A stretch of 64,000 nt of DNA, taken from contig NZ_CP026692.1 of the NCBI RefSeq assembly GCF_002949795.1, forward strand, positions 124,001-188,000, in the 5' to 3' direction. The notes beneath the pieces were generated by a model that saw nothing but the letters and a program-made list of their open reading frames with translations, made no database searches and had not been told where the DNA came from. This DNA is from Nostoc sp. 'Lobaria pulmonaria (5183) cyanobiont'. GTDB lineage: Bacteria; Cyanobacteriota; Cyanobacteriia; Cyanobacteriales; Nostocaceae. This document shows, piece after piece, positions 46,135-52,616 of the stretch (its first letter is position 1; each line of letters starts with the position of its first letter). The position numbers were made by a program, and so were the translations under genes.

Positions 46135-46836
46135 TTAGACTTCTGGTTCAACGCCTAAAGAGCGCAATTGAGCAGTCAAGCGATCGGCTCTTTCTTCACC
46201 AGTCAACAACAAATTACCTTGCAAATCCCACCAGCGTAGCCAAGGTAATTCCATATTGTAATATTGTCCCTGCCAAATTCCTAACTCAACTCCTAAAGGA
46301 TGTATAGGATAATGTCCCCGTTCATTTGCTATTAATAACTGATATTGTCCACCAATTAATTCATAAACTTCCACACTGGCTTTATTCATTTCATAAATGC
46401 TGTAGAAGGGAGGACGAATCACCTGCTCATAAATCCAAAATTTTCCCTTCCAAGGAGTTTTGTCTCGCTCCTGACTACCATCGCCAGAAACAAATTCTAA
46501 TGCAATTAATGGGGCAATAAACTCTCGCCAGAGTACATAAGACCTGCGCGTTTGTCCATCCAGAGTAGGTGGTACATTCCCTACATAAAACCAGTCTGGT
46601 GCTTCTGCGCCTTTTTCTGGGGGGTCAGTAATGCGCCAGTAGATACCGCTATCTTGACCAATACAGTATTGCCCATCAGGATGACGTTTTTGCAATATCG
46701 GTTTAATCGAGTCGGTTAGGAGAATGCTTTGGGGATGTTCCTGAAAGTTTTTCACGAATGTACCATCAGACTCAGGAAGCTGTGTATGGTCTGGGAACGG
46801 GGTGAGGGCGGTGGATGGATCGGTTGCAGAGGTCAT
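46135..46836 (-). CDS. Uma2 family (DUF820) putative endonuclease
   Basis: A 233-residue Uma2-type protein convergent with cupB, 7 bp between stops. Family landmarks are KRHPDGQYCIGQDSGIYWRITDPPEKGAEAPDWFYVGNVPPTLDGQTRRSYVLWREFIAPLIALEFVSGDGSQERDKTPWKGKFWIYEQVIRPPFYSIYEM. P-D of the PD-(D/E)XK core is APDWFYV, and the E strand is ALEFVSGDGSEER-like. Function unknown. It is the second of three Uma2 genes here and belongs to a different subgroup from the one at 13584 (longer E-loop, no coiled-coil tail). Confidence 0.85.
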   Translation of the reverse strand: MTSATDPSTALTPFPDHTQLPESDGTFVKNFQEHPQSILLTDSIKPILQKRHPDGQYCIGQDSGIYWRITDPPEKGAEAPDWFYVGNVPPTLDGQTRRSYVLWREFIAPLIALEFVSGDGSQERDKTPWKGKFWIYEQVIRPPFYSIYEMNKASVEVYELIGGQYQLLIANERGHYPIHPLGVELGIWQGQYYNMELPWLRWWDLQGNLLLTGEERADRLTAQLRSLGVEPEV

Positions 46837-46941
46837 AAGACTACCTTTGCAGGAGTAAGGGTTGTTTTTTAGTTTAGCAGTGGAAGGGGAGATGGGGCGA
46901 TCGCTTACTACTCGCCAACTAATGCCAGAATCATAGGTGGT

Positions 46942-47193
46942 TCAGCCACGTTCTAATTCCCGTTGTAAGTCATCAAAATCAACAATGAAGGCATCGATTT
47001 GTTCACGGGATAAAGCCAGGAGAAAATCTGTTCTATCTAAATCGGCGATATTAGCTGCTTTCTCTTGAGAAATTTCACTGCGTCCATACCAGTGTATGGC
47101 CGCAGCCAAACGCAATTCACGGACAAACTCATTAGATGATAGGCGCAGGGCAGAAAATATTTCTTCGGGTAGCTCTAAGGTGACAATAGTCAT
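46942..47193 (-). CDS. UPF0175 family small protein (antitoxin-like)
   Basis: An 83-residue UPF0175 protein: MTIVTLELPEEIFSALRLSSNEFVRELRLAAAIHWYGRSEISQEKAANIADLDRTDFLLALSREQ. The predicted helix-turn-helix (ISQEKAANIADLDRTDFLLAL) suggests DNA binding. Such genes usually precede a PIN-domain (DUF3368) toxin gene, but the downstream 105 bp and the next gene (Uma2) do not encode one, so this antitoxin-like gene appears orphaned. Confidence 0.8.
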   Translation of the reverse strand: MTIVTLELPEEIFSALRLSSNEFVRELRLAAAIHWYGRSEISQEKAANIADLDRTDFLLALSREQIDAFIVDFDDLQRELERG

Positions 47194-47291: not shown

Positions 47292-48062
47292 ATGCCCCGC
47301 CCTCGACGCGAACTTAAATCAGGCTTTTGTTATCACATTACTACCCGTTGCAATAACCGGGAATTTCGGCTGACGCGGTTAGAATGTCGTGAAGTTTTCC
47401 TTTATGCCATTAAGAAGGCACAGGATAAGTATAAATTTAAACTCTATGCTTTGTGCATTATGTCGAATCATGTGCATTACTTGATAGAGCCACAACAGCC
47501 AGAAGATTTGCCCAAAATTATGCACTGGCTCAACTGGTATACTGCCATGTGCTTTAATCGAATGTTGAACCGCACTGGGCATTTTTGGGAGAAGCGATAC
47601 CACAGTACAGGTTTTAGCAACACAGATCGACAACGGGCGTTGAATACTCTGCGATATATTCACGCTAACCCAAAAGCGGCGGGAATACAGCAGGGTTTTT
47701 TCTATGACTTTAGTAATTATGGCACTCACGACCGTTTGAGTAATGATGGCATAACTCAATGGCATCCAGCATTTTTACAATTGGGGCGAACTTTAGAAGA
47801 GTGCGCGGCCAGGTATCGCAGATTTTGTCAGAAATATAAGCCAAAAGCGCAACCAGAAAAGCGAAATTTTTGGGGAAGTCACTTTTTGCCTTCGATGATT
47901 AAGAGTGGGAAGGCTAAAAAGTCGTCGCCTGGGCAGATGAGTTTACCTTGGGATAACCAGAGGGTGACGGAATCTACTGAGGTGCATGAGGTAGCGGAAA
48001 AATTTATTCAGGCAAATCGCTATCAGCCGACGGTGCCAGGTATCGGATTTATGAAATGTTGA
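47292..48062 (+). CDS. REP-associated tyrosine transposase (TnpA_REP)
   Basis: A 256-residue Y1 transposase-like protein: MPRPRRELKSGFCYHITTRC at the start; the HUH metal site is MSNHVHYLIEP (His60, His62); the helix WLNWYTAMCFNRMLNRTGHFWEKRYHS bears the likely catalytic tyrosine (about residue 88); then TLRYIHANPKAAG. RAYTs are domesticated relatives of IS200/IS605 transposases that bind REP palindromes. A REP-like sequence lies directly upstream. After residue 170 there is a C-terminal extension rich in K/R. The last 35 bp are duplicated downstream. Confidence 0.9.
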   Translation: MPRPRRELKSGFCYHITTRCNNREFRLTRLECREVFLYAIKKAQDKYKFKLYALCIMSNHVHYLIEPQQPEDLPKIMHWLNWYTAMCFNRMLNRTGHFWEKRYHSTGFSNTDRQRALNTLRYIHANPKAAGIQQGFFYDFSNYGTHDRLSNDGITQWHPAFLQLGRTLEECAARYRRFCQKYKPKAQPEKRNFWGSHFLPSMIKSGKAKKSSPGQMSLPWDNQRVTESTEVHEVAEKFIQANRYQPTVPGIGFMKC

Positions 48063-48104
48063 TTATTGCGGTGAGGTATCGGATTTATGAAATGTTGATT
48101 ATTG
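48041..48104 (+). repeat. Tandem duplication at the RAYT 3' end
   Basis: ggtatcggatttatgaaatg followed by ttgattattgcg occurs twice in a row (starting near 48041 and 48073). The first copy encodes the C-terminal GIGFMKC of RAYT and its stop. Confidence 0.8.
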
Positions 48105-48150
48105 CGTGGGAAAAGAGGCTGTGATAAATGTTTACAAATTTCTGAAAGCT

Positions 48151-50970
48151 TTATATGTTACATTTTACAAGTCGCGACGCGAGAAAAAAGAAGGTGTTCT
48201 TACTGTTCGTGGTATTGGTATTGAAATTAGAAGGTAAGTGTCCCTCACAGGCAGAGGCACTATATTTTACTTTACTCAAATCTATCCAATTGTCACCCAC
48301 TCTCCACTCCACGCGATCGCCGAAGCGACTAAAAGCTTTGTATATTTCGTCTAAATCAAAATCATCCCTAATACCACCAAAACGTGCATATATCCTTATG
48401 AAGGGGGCGAAAATCTTCAACAAAGGTGAACTTGTTCGACTTCCTTCTAAGATTCCACCCTCTTCGAGATATATTTTTTTCTGAACACTAAACCCAAATT
48501 TTCCATTGCTGTAATTAACCCACAGTTGGTCAATAGTTCTCAAGTCTTCACAGGGAAATTCCTGAATGTCTTCTATTTGCAGATAGCCTTGTTTTTCCCT
48601 TCCTGCGACTTCCAGCATCACCTTAAATGTTTCCTCATCAGCCTCTTTCCACATACCTGCTGCTAGATAGTAAGCGAGTTGATGATACTTTTCGGGTATG
48701 CGAAACCGGACTAGGTGAAATTTCTCTGTTGAGGTTTCGCGCCTATAACAGATTCCTGCCTCACCAAATCGTTCTCTAGTTCTCTGACTCAACCAGGCAC
48801 AAAACGCATTTCCTTGGGCAAAGCCGATTTCACCTGGTTTGATTTCAATAGTTAAGTCGCTGTTGGTTGTCTCTAAGAAAAACAGGCGATATTCTGCCTC
48901 AGTAATCTCAGTATCATCTACCACTTGCCCTGGCCAGATTTTGTCACCTGTCTCTGTGGTGGCGATCGCCATCTGGTCTTCTTTTTCTGAACTCCCTACA
49001 AAACAATCTTCGTTCAGGTGATTTAGCCGTTTTTCCAGTTGCACTGATGCTGCTAACTTAAAAACTTCCAGGTCATCTGACTTCAAACCCTCTTCTACCT
49101 TTTTCAGTAGTTCCTGTTCTTTCTTTGGACTAACTCTGAGCTTGTTCTGCAAACACTCGTAAGCAAGGGTTAAGGTGGCGACAGTTGGGTTGTTTAATGC
49201 CGCATCAATCAGGTTATCGACTTTGACTTGACCTGCATAGAATAAAATAGTTTGTCTCCTCCAATCCAGGTATTGGTTATTTTTTCCATCCAGGTATTGG
49301 TTATTTTTAGTAAAAACTTCTAATAAATAAGGCTCATGCTCTGCCTTTGTGAGTTCAACCGCCGTTAAATACTCCTGAAAGGTGCGATGGGTAAATTCAT
49401 AGAGTTTTTCTTGTTTGCGATCGCTCAACAGTTCTCGCACACCACTATCATCTCTTTCGATAAAATCTTCTGGTTTAACCTGTTGTCCCCCCTCAACCAT
49501 CTGAGCTAGTTCTGCCTGAAGAAACTCTTTTGCTAGAAAAATATTACTGTCCTGATTACTCTCATCTAGCGTAAACTGAAGTACTTGGCGTTTGGTCATC
49601 TCCAATGCGAGTGCCTGCAAAGCTTCTTGCTTTTGCTCTGGCTTGAGTGGATATCGGGTAGTTCCAGAAGCAGATTGCCGTCCTTGGAGAAGCACATCAC
49701 AAACTTGCTTGTAAAGTCCTGTTCGGGTTGGAGAAAGACTCGTTTTCTGCTTGTAAGTATTAATAATCAATGCCAGTAAAAGCGGGTTAGTTGCCATCAA
49801 GCGGAGTGAAGAAACTGCATCAATTTGCCGCACTAACTCGTTTTTTTTGGATTCGGCAATTTTCTTCAACTGTTTTTGTGATTGTTTTCTAGAATTTTTA
49901 CGTTTTTCTAGATTAAAATACCACTTGAAAAGAAAGCTATTGCGCTGTTGAGTGGTGAATGACCGCACAAAATAAGCTGGGGTATCTGGCAGAGGAGCTT
50001 GATTGTAAGCTTGTGGACGCGATGTGAGAATGAACGGTAATTTATGCTGATAATTTCGGAGTTGCTGATAAACCCAAGTACTTACCTGCCGTCGATGCTC
50101 ATCGTCCGCAACTTCATCGAGTCCATCTAACATTACCAAACACTTGGCGTCTTTAAGCTGTTTTATAAACCAATCATGAGTTTTTGTTGATTCATCTCCC
50201 ATCGCTTTAGCGATTACTTGAGCTAGAGAGGAGTTAGCATCTGCAACAATAGCGGGAGCCACATCTCTCAACCTCAACAAAATAGGAATAAGTTGAGGCA
50301 AACCTCGACACAATTTTGATTGTTTTCGCAGAGCAAGCAGAAGCGTGATGTGCCGTAAAAGTGTGGTTTTTCCTGAACCAGGCGCTCCTAAAATTACCAG
50401 TCGTCGCAACCTCGAATTTTTTTTCGTAATCTTTCTCAGCAAACTACTAATTTCACTTTCCTGCTGAGTAGTAATAGTTATAGAGGTTGCTGTTTGCCCG
50501 GATTCCGAATTTTGCTCCGGCTCAGTTTGATCACCGGAGGTCAAATCTTGAGGATTAGAAACTGGCGTTTCTGAATTAAAGCCCAAGGGGACAAATACAT
50601 TTTCCAGATCCAGTCCTTCGCCACTAAATCCGCGCCCCTGGTATTCTTCACATTCAGCTATTTGTCGGGCAAGATACTCTGCCCCAAACCGATCTGTAAT
50701 TTGCGTCCACCATTTGGGAATTTGAGTAGTAAGTATCCAGTCCAAAAATTTATCGAAATAGGGAAGAAGTTTATTCCCAATTCTGATGATGATAAAGACA
50801 AGAACGGTGATTCCTAAAAAGATAGCAAACTCTTTCCATCGGGCATTTTTGGCATGATCAGCAGCAATAGCAATAAAAATACCCGGTACACCCCACCCGA
50901 CTAATTTGTTATCTAAAATCTTTTGTACCGATTCCCACCAAGCGGGTTGATTATCTTGGCTTTGAGTCAT
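48151..50970 (-). CDS. Membrane-anchored NACHT NTPase with C-terminal GUN4 domain
   Basis: A 939-residue multidomain protein. Residues 22-66 contain two hydrophobic segments (VGWGVPGIFIAIAA; FAIFLGITVLVFIIIRI). The NACHT domain spans about 188-340, with Walker A GAPGSGKTT (195-203), Walker B LVMLDGLDEV (278-287) and the sensor TSRP (316-319); helical NACHT-associated sequence continues to about 650. At 680-755 is a formylglycine-enzyme-like piece (ITEAEYRLFFLE; AQGNAFCAWLSQRTRERF). From about 762 to 912 is a GUN4 domain (YLAAGMWKEADEETFKVMLEVAGREKQGYLQIEDIQEFPCEDLRTIDQLWVNYSNGKFGFSVQKKIY; FGDRVEWRV; CEGHLPS). ATG 50970 was preferred to 51048, which lies inside a MITE. Function: STAND-type signalling, possibly tetrapyrrole-responsive or defensive (inference). 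Confidence 0.88.
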   Translation of the reverse strand: MTQSQDNQPAWWESVQKILDNKLVGWGVPGIFIAIAADHAKNARWKEFAIFLGITVLVFIIIRIGNKLLPYFDKFLDWILTTQIPKWWTQITDRFGAEYLARQIAECEEYQGRGFSGEGLDLENVFVPLGFNSETPVSNPQDLTSGDQTEPEQNSESGQTATSITITTQQESEISSLLRKITKKNSRLRRLVILGAPGSGKTTLLRHITLLLALRKQSKLCRGLPQLIPILLRLRDVAPAIVADANSSLAQVIAKAMGDESTKTHDWFIKQLKDAKCLVMLDGLDEVADDEHRRQVSTWVYQQLRNYQHKLPFILTSRPQAYNQAPLPDTPAYFVRSFTTQQRNSFLFKWYFNLEKRKNSRKQSQKQLKKIAESKKNELVRQIDAVSSLRLMATNPLLLALIINTYKQKTSLSPTRTGLYKQVCDVLLQGRQSASGTTRYPLKPEQKQEALQALALEMTKRQVLQFTLDESNQDSNIFLAKEFLQAELAQMVEGGQQVKPEDFIERDDSGVRELLSDRKQEKLYEFTHRTFQEYLTAVELTKAEHEPYLLEVFTKNNQYLDGKNNQYLDWRRQTILFYAGQVKVDNLIDAALNNPTVATLTLAYECLQNKLRVSPKKEQELLKKVEEGLKSDDLEVFKLAASVQLEKRLNHLNEDCFVGSSEKEDQMAIATTETGDKIWPGQVVDDTEITEAEYRLFFLETTNSDLTIEIKPGEIGFAQGNAFCAWLSQRTRERFGEAGICYRRETSTEKFHLVRFRIPEKYHQLAYYLAAGMWKEADEETFKVMLEVAGREKQGYLQIEDIQEFPCEDLRTIDQLWVNYSNGKFGFSVQKKIYLEEGGILEGSRTSSPLLKIFAPFIRIYARFGGIRDDFDLDEIYKAFSRFGDRVEWRVGDNWIDLSKVKYSASACEGHLPSNFNTNTTNSKNTFFFLASRLVKCNI

Positions 50971-51009: not shown

Positions 51010-51154
51010 TTGAAAACCGTAGTTCTGTATGAATAAAAAAACCCTCATCCCCCAGCCCCTTCTCCCAATATTGGGAGAAGGGGAGCCGGAAAGAAGTCCC
51101 TCTCCCTACTTGGGAGAGGGATTTAGGGTGAGGGCAAAAACTACGGTTCTCAAC
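51010..51154. mobile_element. MITE with aaccgtagtt termini
   Basis: Ends gttgaaaaccgtagtt (51010-51025) and aactacggttctcaac (51139-51154) are inverted copies with one gap. Inside are two hairpin units, ctcccaatattgggag and ctccctacttgggag, with a ccctcatcccccagcccctt edge and its complement ggtgagggc. It lies at the 5' end of the NACHT-GUN4 gene and may carry its leader. Confidence 0.75.
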
Positions 51155-52268: not shown

Positions 52269-52616
52269 GTGAATTTATTGAGATTTATCCGAATTCAAGA
52301 AACGACTGCCCGAATTCAAGAAACGATCGCCCGAATTCAAGAAACGACTGCCCGAATTCAAGAAACGATCGCCCGAATTCAAGAAACGACTGCCCGAATT
52401 CAAGAAACGACTGCCCGAATTCAAGAAACGACTGCCCGAATTCAAGAAACGATCGCCCGAATTCAAGAAACGACTGCCCGAATTCAAGAAACGACTGCCC
52501 GAATTCAATATCGCGCTTCTTGTTTGATTGCAATATCGAACTCCTATTTAATTTTTGCGAGGCTCGGTACGCCTTTATCTCGCTTCGCTCATGAAGATTC
52601 CCTGCGATCGCCCTGA
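52269..52616 (+). CDS. Possible heptad-repeat (RIQETTA) protein, doubtful
   Basis: TTG or similar start at 52269 (MNLLRFIRIQETTARIQETI), ten RIQETTA/RIQETIA heptads and a 35-residue non-repeat tail. The heptad has hydrophobic Ile and amphipathic spacing suited to a coiled coil. There is no ribosome binding site, and another plus frame (52202-52594; NSRNDCP repeats) is equally open, so I do not consider translation established. Confidence 0.3.
   Translation: MNLLRFIRIQETTARIQETIARIQETTARIQETIARIQETTARIQETTARIQETTARIQETIARIQETTARIQETTARIQYRASCLIAISNSYLIFARLGTPLSRFAHEDSLRSP
52289..52508 (+). repeat. 21-bp minisatellite, 10 copies plus a partial unit
   Basis: Unit ccgaattcaagaaacgacTg c with a cg-atcgc variant at three of ten copies. 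Each unit has one gaattc. Because the unit length is a multiple of three and carries no stop in several frames, the array is open on both strands; one plus frame gives a seven-residue RIQETTA heptad (52269-52616, 115 codons). Confidence 0.95.

Follow-up and report, generated by a model that had tools for sequence, protein, structure and literature searches.

A membrane-anchored NACHT-GUN4 protein of Nostoc with a replaceable, frame-free 3' end, all-frame stops and a linked RAYT

We analysed a 64,000-nucleotide (nt) stretch of the genome of Nostoc sp. 'Lobaria pulmonaria (5183) cyanobiont' (NZ_CP026692.1, positions 124,001 to 188,000; hereafter the window), and in particular a gene on its reverse strand (48151..50970) whose protein joins a NACHT NTPase to a GUN4 domain. 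An earlier, sequence-only reading had proposed a membrane-anchored, tetrapyrrole-sensing STAND NTPase. The chimera is confirmed, but the tetrapyrrole reading is not. The remarkable part of the gene is its 3' end, which is replaceable, free of reading frame, closed by a DNA element with stops in all three frames, and linked to a REP-associated Y1/HUH transposase (RAYT). The explanation that we favour, with slightly better than even confidence, is a hypervariable receptor carrying a RAYT-linked diversification cassette that works without a reverse transcriptase (RT).

Among bacteria, the main known source of targeted hypervariation in proteins is the diversity-generating retroelement (DGR). The cassette described here possibly diversifies a sensor in a way not described before. 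If this is true, receptor diversity could also arise by another route, in which a whole coding end is replaced in any frame and beside a transposase; in cyanobacteria, this route would be tied to NLR-like switches, kinases and TIR proteins. It would also change the reading of the many GUN4 proteins for which tetrapyrrole sensing is at present proposed, and RAYT transposases would gain a testable role.

The end of the gene has three parts. The codons for GHLP (48232-48243) are directly followed by a 41-nt hypervariable segment (VR; 48191..48231, reverse strand) and then by a conserved tail element (48076..48192, reverse strand; profile match at E 3.2e-29, with the window copy among the profile seeds). 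Inside the tail lie a small, imperfect inverted repeat (48172..48184, reverse strand; here TCTCGCGTCGCGA, consensus TCTCG-CRT-CGAGA) and three stops arranged as TAA-N4-TAA-N4-TAA (48165-48167, 48158-48160 and 48151-48153, together 48151..48167 on the reverse strand), the last of which ends the NACHT-GUN4 gene. The tail element follows the VR in 109 of the 153 unique non-canonical GUN4 genes fetched and in none of the 13 canonical ones (GUN4 loci, designated here by L numbers, were drawn from best-match lists, not at random). At their 7-nt spacing, the three stops provide one per reading frame. The stop slots are kept in 101, 106 and 85 of the 109 tailed genes, compared with 1.3% stops at other offsets. 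The genes enter the tail equally in all three frames (37/36/36), and the same kind of tail DNA gives C-terminal ends such as FSRVETCKL, SLASRLVNCNI and LLSRRDL. Open frames end at slot 0, 1 or 2 in 35, 34 and 27 cases, beyond these in 7 and before the tail in 6. The mean pairwise DNA identity of the tail is 0.71, against 0.709 for the GUN4 core and 0.48 for the third codon positions of that core. That is, the tail is as conserved as the core even though it is read in three frames, and is thus conserved as DNA.

The VR itself was studied in 97 of the 109 tailed genes, the rest having no parsed GHLP or a VR length out of range. It measures 14-129 nt (median 56 nt, about 18 codons), its length modulo 3 is evenly spread (33/32/32), and its base composition is G/T-rich (G.377, T.313, C.115). 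In-frame stops occupy 4 of 1892 codons, compared with 103 of 1859 and 93 of 1827 in the other frames (about 5%), a near absence that is expected of a translated segment; at the off-frame rate, by our arithmetic, a stop would be expected in about 64% of median-length VRs.

Comparisons between relatives suggest how the VR changes. Of the pairs formed by the 97 loci, 147 reach 78% identity or more in the upstream DNA. In 7 of these pairs the VRs are at least 0.92 identical, in 140 at most 0.60, and in none between these values. The low-identity class averages 0.41, the same as shuffled sequence (0.41), and the VR lengths differ in 138 of its 140 pairs; the tails of these pairs average 0.87. Gradual drift would give intermediates, so their lack looks like one-step replacement, and the VR behaves as if the whole segment were exchanged. 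The window gene is a case in point. Its VR is 0.34-0.57 identical to those of nine orthologues (shuffled 0.32-0.47), which is little or no better than chance. In the comparison with L065, identity upstream is 94-97%, or 82% over the final 150 nt; it drops to 0.51 in the VR (shuffled 0.45) and returns to 0.96 over the next 51 nt and 1.00 over the following 65 nt. Some close pairs keep the same VR (e.g. L142/L148 and L069/L011), so replacement must be occasional. All seven VR-sharing pairs are without a RAYT nearby, in line with a part for the RAYT in VR change (significance not computed). Copies of the flanks inside VRs at 8 nt (left 4 against 0.6 expected, right 2 against 0.9 expected) hinted at slippage, but are too few to build on.

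These features could also be read as a neutral, degenerate tail, where a fragile site at the repeat collects random DNA and the RAYT is a hitchhiker. Such a tail would fit the G/T-rich VR, the loss of reading frame, the fragmentary state of several RAYTs, the VR changes seen without a nearby RAYT and the weak covariation of the repeat. However, the avoidance of in-frame stops in the VR and the three conserved stop slots point to selection for a translated, properly ended segment, and the RAYT clades (described below) track the type of neighbour. We regard the neutral account as unlikely, while giving it real weight.

If VRs are replaced, their origin matters. GUN4 paralogues might swap 3' ends by recombination, and L011 and L069 speak for this: they share an identical VR and a near-identical GUN4 end, yet at full length the two proteins show 44% and 78% identity to that of the window. 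Here, a 3'-end exchange between lineages is possible, judging from the sequences. As the general source of VRs, however, shuffling appears improbable, given that, within the fetched loci (1.16 Mb), 18-mers from the 97 VRs come back just in re-fetched copies or in the VRs of close relatives. The sole exception is the VR of L197, which holds a copy of the tail itself. No VR donor was found in the window's own genome or among the fetched loci, the sequence to which the search was confined.

A DGR is another candidate for diversifying such a segment, and two observations recall it. The hypervariable C-terminus sits on a NACHT sensor, as in DGR targets described in the available text of Dore et al. 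(2024, PMC10907252), and relatives of the window protein carry FGE-sulfatase domains. Against this, the five RVT_1 matches of the own genome, taken as RT-domain stretches only, include no DGR-type RT (four are of group II type and one is Drt4-like). The genome also holds no template-like copy of the VR: over the VR, the only match below E 0.49 was the VR itself, and the only other significant match to the VR-region query covers 27 nt upstream of GHLP (E 9e-4). Finally, VR length varies freely, unlike what template copying would give. With neither a DGR-type RT nor a template repeat, and with VR length free, we reject a DGR origin for the own genome and consider this explanation most improbable overall.

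The second line of evidence is the RAYT. In the window, its gene (47292..48062, forward strand; 256 amino acids, aa) is convergent with the NACHT-GUN4 gene, and the two gene ends lie about 95 nt apart. The protein matches Y1_Tnp of Pfam at E 2.3e-19 and carries NHVH (the HUH motif) and RYIHANP (with the catalytic Tyr), as compared by eye with a published motif table. It scores 71.4 bits against NF047646, under the cut-off of 80, and matched no PDB sequence at E 0.01. The sequence-only reading had counted the RAYT among the contents of an accessory region; it is the conserved convergent neighbour. A RAYT open frame lies within 700 nt of 23 of the 109 tailed genes, compared with 2 of the 44 non-canonical genes without a tail and none of the 13 canonical GUN4 genes. 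In 13 genomes, all four Y1_Tnp matches with an open frame of at least 250 aa adjoin GUN4 genes, and the shorter Y1_Tnp matches listed there are all more than 10 kb away from the GUN4 matches listed.

Starting from the RAYT side, 58 of 386 genomes have a match at 1e-12. We considered 50 RAYT loci (L201-L230 are the best loci of the search; L231-L250 were picked by us from the match list). By a strict rule, 38 could be classified: 18 adjoin GUN4 genes, 12 a protein with RVHD plus a variable tail, 4 a cyanobactin-type gene and 4 a Nif11-type gene. Reading the loci added seven more, namely GUN4 at L206, L207 and L215, cyanobactin-type at L235, and Nif11-type at L226, L244 and L245. In all, 21 of the 50 loci adjoin GUN4 genes and 24 adjoin other genes with variable C-termini; L218, L223, L232, L233 and L236 fit no neighbour class. 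The names cyanobactin, prochlorosin and Nif11 are our presumption, based on familiar motifs. RAYTs at 47-49% identity to that of the window are convergent with Nif11-type precursors. The RVHD and Nif11 cases come from genomes of 1.6-3.2 Mb in one family (f25), which we take for picocyanobacteria. Outside f25, 25 genomes have a RAYT at 1e-60, and the tailed GUN4 genes that were fetched include at least one from 22 of them (relatedness uncorrected). A tree of 48 RAYTs was rooted at its midpoint; four members are unclassified, and some labels were assigned by hand. RAYTs with GUN4, cyanobactin-type and Nif11/RVHD neighbours occupy three separate parts of this tree.

The neighbours have features of their own. 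The cyanobactin-type genes (L216, L217, L219, L221, L235) are small and convergent, with a conserved leader MTKKN, a variable core and a PFAGDDAE or PFADDDAE end. The RVHD-type proteins (L224, L225, L239-L243, L246, L247, L249, L250) have an RVHD-like end followed by a short variable tail, often containing Cys. At L107 (1380-10336), four tailed GUN4 genes stand in tandem with one RAYT at the end of the array. In the window, about 30 nt are directly duplicated after the RAYT end (48039-48106), and this makes the spacer (95 nt) longer than at L009 (59 nt) and L065 (73 nt).

Several observations weigh against a RAYT-linked cassette. Just those 23 of the 109 tailed genes have a RAYT frame within 700 nt (some flanks are short). 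The fetched tailed GUN4 genes come from 64 genomes, of which 22 lack any RAYT of this family at E 1e-12 and 20 have weak or fragmentary matches only. VRs differ in many pairs without a nearby RAYT, and replacement is also seen in RAYT-poor genomes; for example, L167 (genome G097) and L164 are 0.97 identical upstream and 0.39 in the VR. A RAYT in cis is thus not required now, and either the RAYT was later lost or another process replaces VRs. The inverted repeat is 87.6% paired and its covariation is weak: just two of the five pairs show a change of both partners, each time in a single sequence, and the structure scores 0.025 for covariation, less than when it is slid by -1 (0.125) or -3 (0.058). 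Moreover, no defence island was found around the gene among the four neighbours scanned. The motif TACCTGGC occurs downstream of 46 of the 109 tailed genes, against 2.35 expected, and could be taken for a decayed RAYT end. In the small-genome clade, however, it also lies apart from the RAYT gene, so we count it as a DNA motif that belongs to the element and does not prove that a RAYT once stood there.

With these points weighed, our favoured account of a diversified receptor runs as follows. The N-terminal helix would anchor the protein in the membrane, and the NACHT domain would act as the ATP-driven switch of an NLR-like STAND protein. GUN4 would be retained as a scaffold that presents the VR where canonical GUN4 holds its pigment. 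A bound ligand, in all likelihood one that comes from a phage or a competitor, would lead to oligomerisation and then to a membrane or signalling output. The cassette would consist of the conserved codons for GHLP, a VR free in both length and frame, the repeat-and-stop DNA element and, often, a convergent RAYT. Comparison of relatives suggests that the whole VR is replaced at once, and the linkage suggests that the agent may be the RAYT, an HUH single-strand nuclease that would work on the repeat element, either in cis or in trans, and use no template RNA. The conserved stops would let any new VR end in a finished protein. The ligand and the defence function belong to what we infer, as does the part played by the RAYT in VR change.

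A broader reading, to which we give somewhat less than even odds, is that in cyanobacteria a domesticated RAYT, a single-strand transposase, rewrites a bounded terminal coding segment without RT or template and with random length and frame, the segment being closed by the all-frame stops. Its targets would be GUN4 receptors (kinase, NACHT, TIR, caspase) and, for sister RAYT clades, cyanobactin and Nif11/prochlorosin-type precursors and a barrel-like protein of picocyanobacteria. The window NACHT-GUN4 would then be one receptor of such a repertoire, with a logic like that of somatically varied immune receptors.

What GUN4 does in this protein bears directly on the earlier proposal that it senses protoporphyrin, Mg-protoporphyrin or a bilin. 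Canonical GUN4 ends in GHLP-LxNxLR. According to the available text of Rockwell and Lagarias (2023, PMC10156173), N211, L213 and R214 of the LxNxLR motif are binding residues in Synechocystis GUN4, and N211 is lost in GUN4 paralogues. F191 and R211 of Arabidopsis GUN4 are reported to matter for porphyrin affinity. In the window protein, V stands at the F position and SNFNTN where canonical GUN4 has LxNxLR; the equivalents of F191 and R211 are absent (the residue equivalences are our own reading of alignments). Canonical genes keep N211, R214 and F196 in 12 of 12 cases each (12 of the 13 were parsed for pocket residues). Among the 97 parsed tailed GUN4, N211 is found in 2 and R214 in 8, and the F196 position is I, V or L in 61.

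The idea that this GUN4 binds a porphyrin or bilin, and thereby gates NACHT by photosynthetic status, retains some arguments. The GUN4 fold is kept, the available part of Kaur et al. (2020, PMC7159879) suggests allosteric tetrapyrrole sensing for fused GUN4, and Chlamydomonas GUN4 with N219G keeps porphyrin binding although bilin binding is abolished (PMC10156173, in the portion available). On the other hand, the published binding residues are absent here and in nearly all of the 97 tailed GUN4, and the pocket segment is swapped for unrelated sequence between close orthologues, in which case a conserved ligand is not expected. We consider tetrapyrrole sensing quite unlikely. On the sequence comparison, binding of porphyrin or bilin by the window GUN4 is not supported, although porphyrin binding keeps a small chance.

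As for the rest of the protein, much of the sequence-only reading stands. The gene encodes 939 aa from the ATG at 50970 (965 aa if the ATG at 51048 is used), and the product is a membrane-anchored NACHT protein with a C-terminal GUN4 fold. The NACHT domain (49921..50406, reverse strand) has both Walker A and Walker B, and the NACHT and GUN4 folds were both recovered when these parts were compared. Two N-terminal membrane segments had been claimed; one clear hydrophobic helix is found by hydropathy (residues 46-67; 50770..50835, reverse strand; helix 45-91 in the predicted model), and the second is not clear. GUN4 had been called full-length. Its fold is kept, but the Pfam match (48223..48693, reverse strand) lacks the C-terminal LxNxLR part. 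A formylglycine-enzyme-like piece finds no support in Pfam. Among 25 of the 29 Pfam rows for the protein, there is no effector family for the N-terminal part and no protein kinase family. Thus, of the proposed layout with GUN4 as sensor, NACHT as switch and the membrane part as effector, we retain NACHT as the switch, the C-terminus as a candidate sensor and a membrane part at the N-terminus, and not the tetrapyrrole as ligand.

Variable-ended GUN4 is joined to other chassis as well. In a Pfam census of 84 of the 109 tailed proteins (87 selected, minus the window's own copy and two short ones), we counted protein kinase 44 times, NACHT 18, TIR_2 8, caspase 3 and trypsin 2, all of which are common signalling or effector chassis. 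At E 1e-10, 141 of 386 genomes of the phylum match the NACHT-GUN4 protein, many of them via other GUN4 genes only (as a rule, two regions per genome were scored). Near-full-length relatives are 75% (L009) and 46-47% (L010, L011) identical, and distant NACHT-GUN4 proteins occur across several families; the named orthologues come from Nostoc, Calothrix, Nodularia, Anabaena and an unclassified Nostocales strain. The own genome has seven GUN4 matches, one of which is the canonical gene. The NACHT-GUN4 gene had no match in plasmids, and the tail had no exact match to its 21-nt pattern in viral contigs.

Several known systems resemble parts of this arrangement. Canonical Mg-chelatase GUN4 (PDB 4xkb, 7e2t) has the same fold, together with the pigment-binding residues and LxNxLR, both of which the window protein lacks. 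Like the window GUN4, the paralogues of Rockwell and Lagarias (2023, PMC10156173) are without N211 of LxNxLR, but the available text describes neither a hypervariable end nor a fusion context for them, and both are found here. Kaur et al. (2020, PMC7159879), as far as available, report GUN4 fused to kinase, caspase, trypsin and TIR in cyanobacterial conflict systems and propose a tetrapyrrole sensor. Their fusions, like the window protein, place GUN4 on signalling or effector domains; a hypervariable GUN4 end, a tail element or a RAYT is not mentioned in that part of the paper, and the binding residues are lost here.

A parallel is offered by the DGR-diversified C-lectin sensors on NACHT proteins of Dore et al. 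(2024, PMC10907252). In the accessible text, these share with the window gene a NACHT switch, a C-terminal hypervariable segment, an origin in multicellular bacteria and a proposed antigen sensing. They use a C-type lectin and a DGR, whereas the window gene uses a GUN4 fold and no such RT or template was found; the free VR length and frame, the all-frame stop element and the RAYT neighbour also set it apart. In tailed GUN4 proteins, the place of the C-lectin is taken by another fold, whose hypervariable end is also of another kind. With regard to RAYTs, the title of a preprint by Laurenceau et al. (2022; ref 39 of PMC10783134) associates TnpAREP with lanthipeptide genes in marine picocyanobacteria. 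The RAYTs convergent with Nif11-type precursors here recall that case and may be of the same family; in that title the target is a peptide precursor, and in the window it is a receptor. No all-frame stop element was noticed beside the precursor genes read here, with no systematic test made. A literature search (preprints excluded, few subscription papers) returned nothing, in the text available, on hypervariable GUN4 ends, the all-frame stop element or a RAYT beside GUN4.

A defence context is not shown by the surroundings of the gene. Beyond the RAYT lie a Uma2-family gene and a UPF0175 antitoxin-like gene (46135-47193). PADLOC on four neighbours gave just a candidate PDC-S70 label for the UPF0175 gene (E 1.3e-9) and a weak match to a control-protein model. 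Two labels for the NACHT-GUN4 protein were also set aside. The PADLOC label PD-T4-6 (E 8.5e-41) covers model positions 310-448 of 450 and the GUN4 part only; since the C-terminal third of PDLC04062 (PD-T4-6) matches GUN4, GUN4 proteins can be mislabelled in this way. The NCBIfam label EruA reaches 39 bits against a cut-off of 1000.

Elsewhere in the own genome, an RT domain at C1:6618743 (L100) is nearest to the antiviral Drt4 (149.3 bits, whole-protein cut-off 450). An orphan tail copy at C1:6186908 (L095/L101) lies between two genes, after a GHLP-like remnant and a G/T-rich stretch, and is perhaps a relic of a lost GUN4 gene. In another genome, the protein at L014 (568-4296) combines NACHT, a partial GUN4 and FGE-sulfatase domains, a possible bridge between GUN4 and C-lectin type sensors. 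In the window, a 21-nt minisatellite of 10.5 copies (52289-52508) lies upstream of the NACHT-GUN4 gene.

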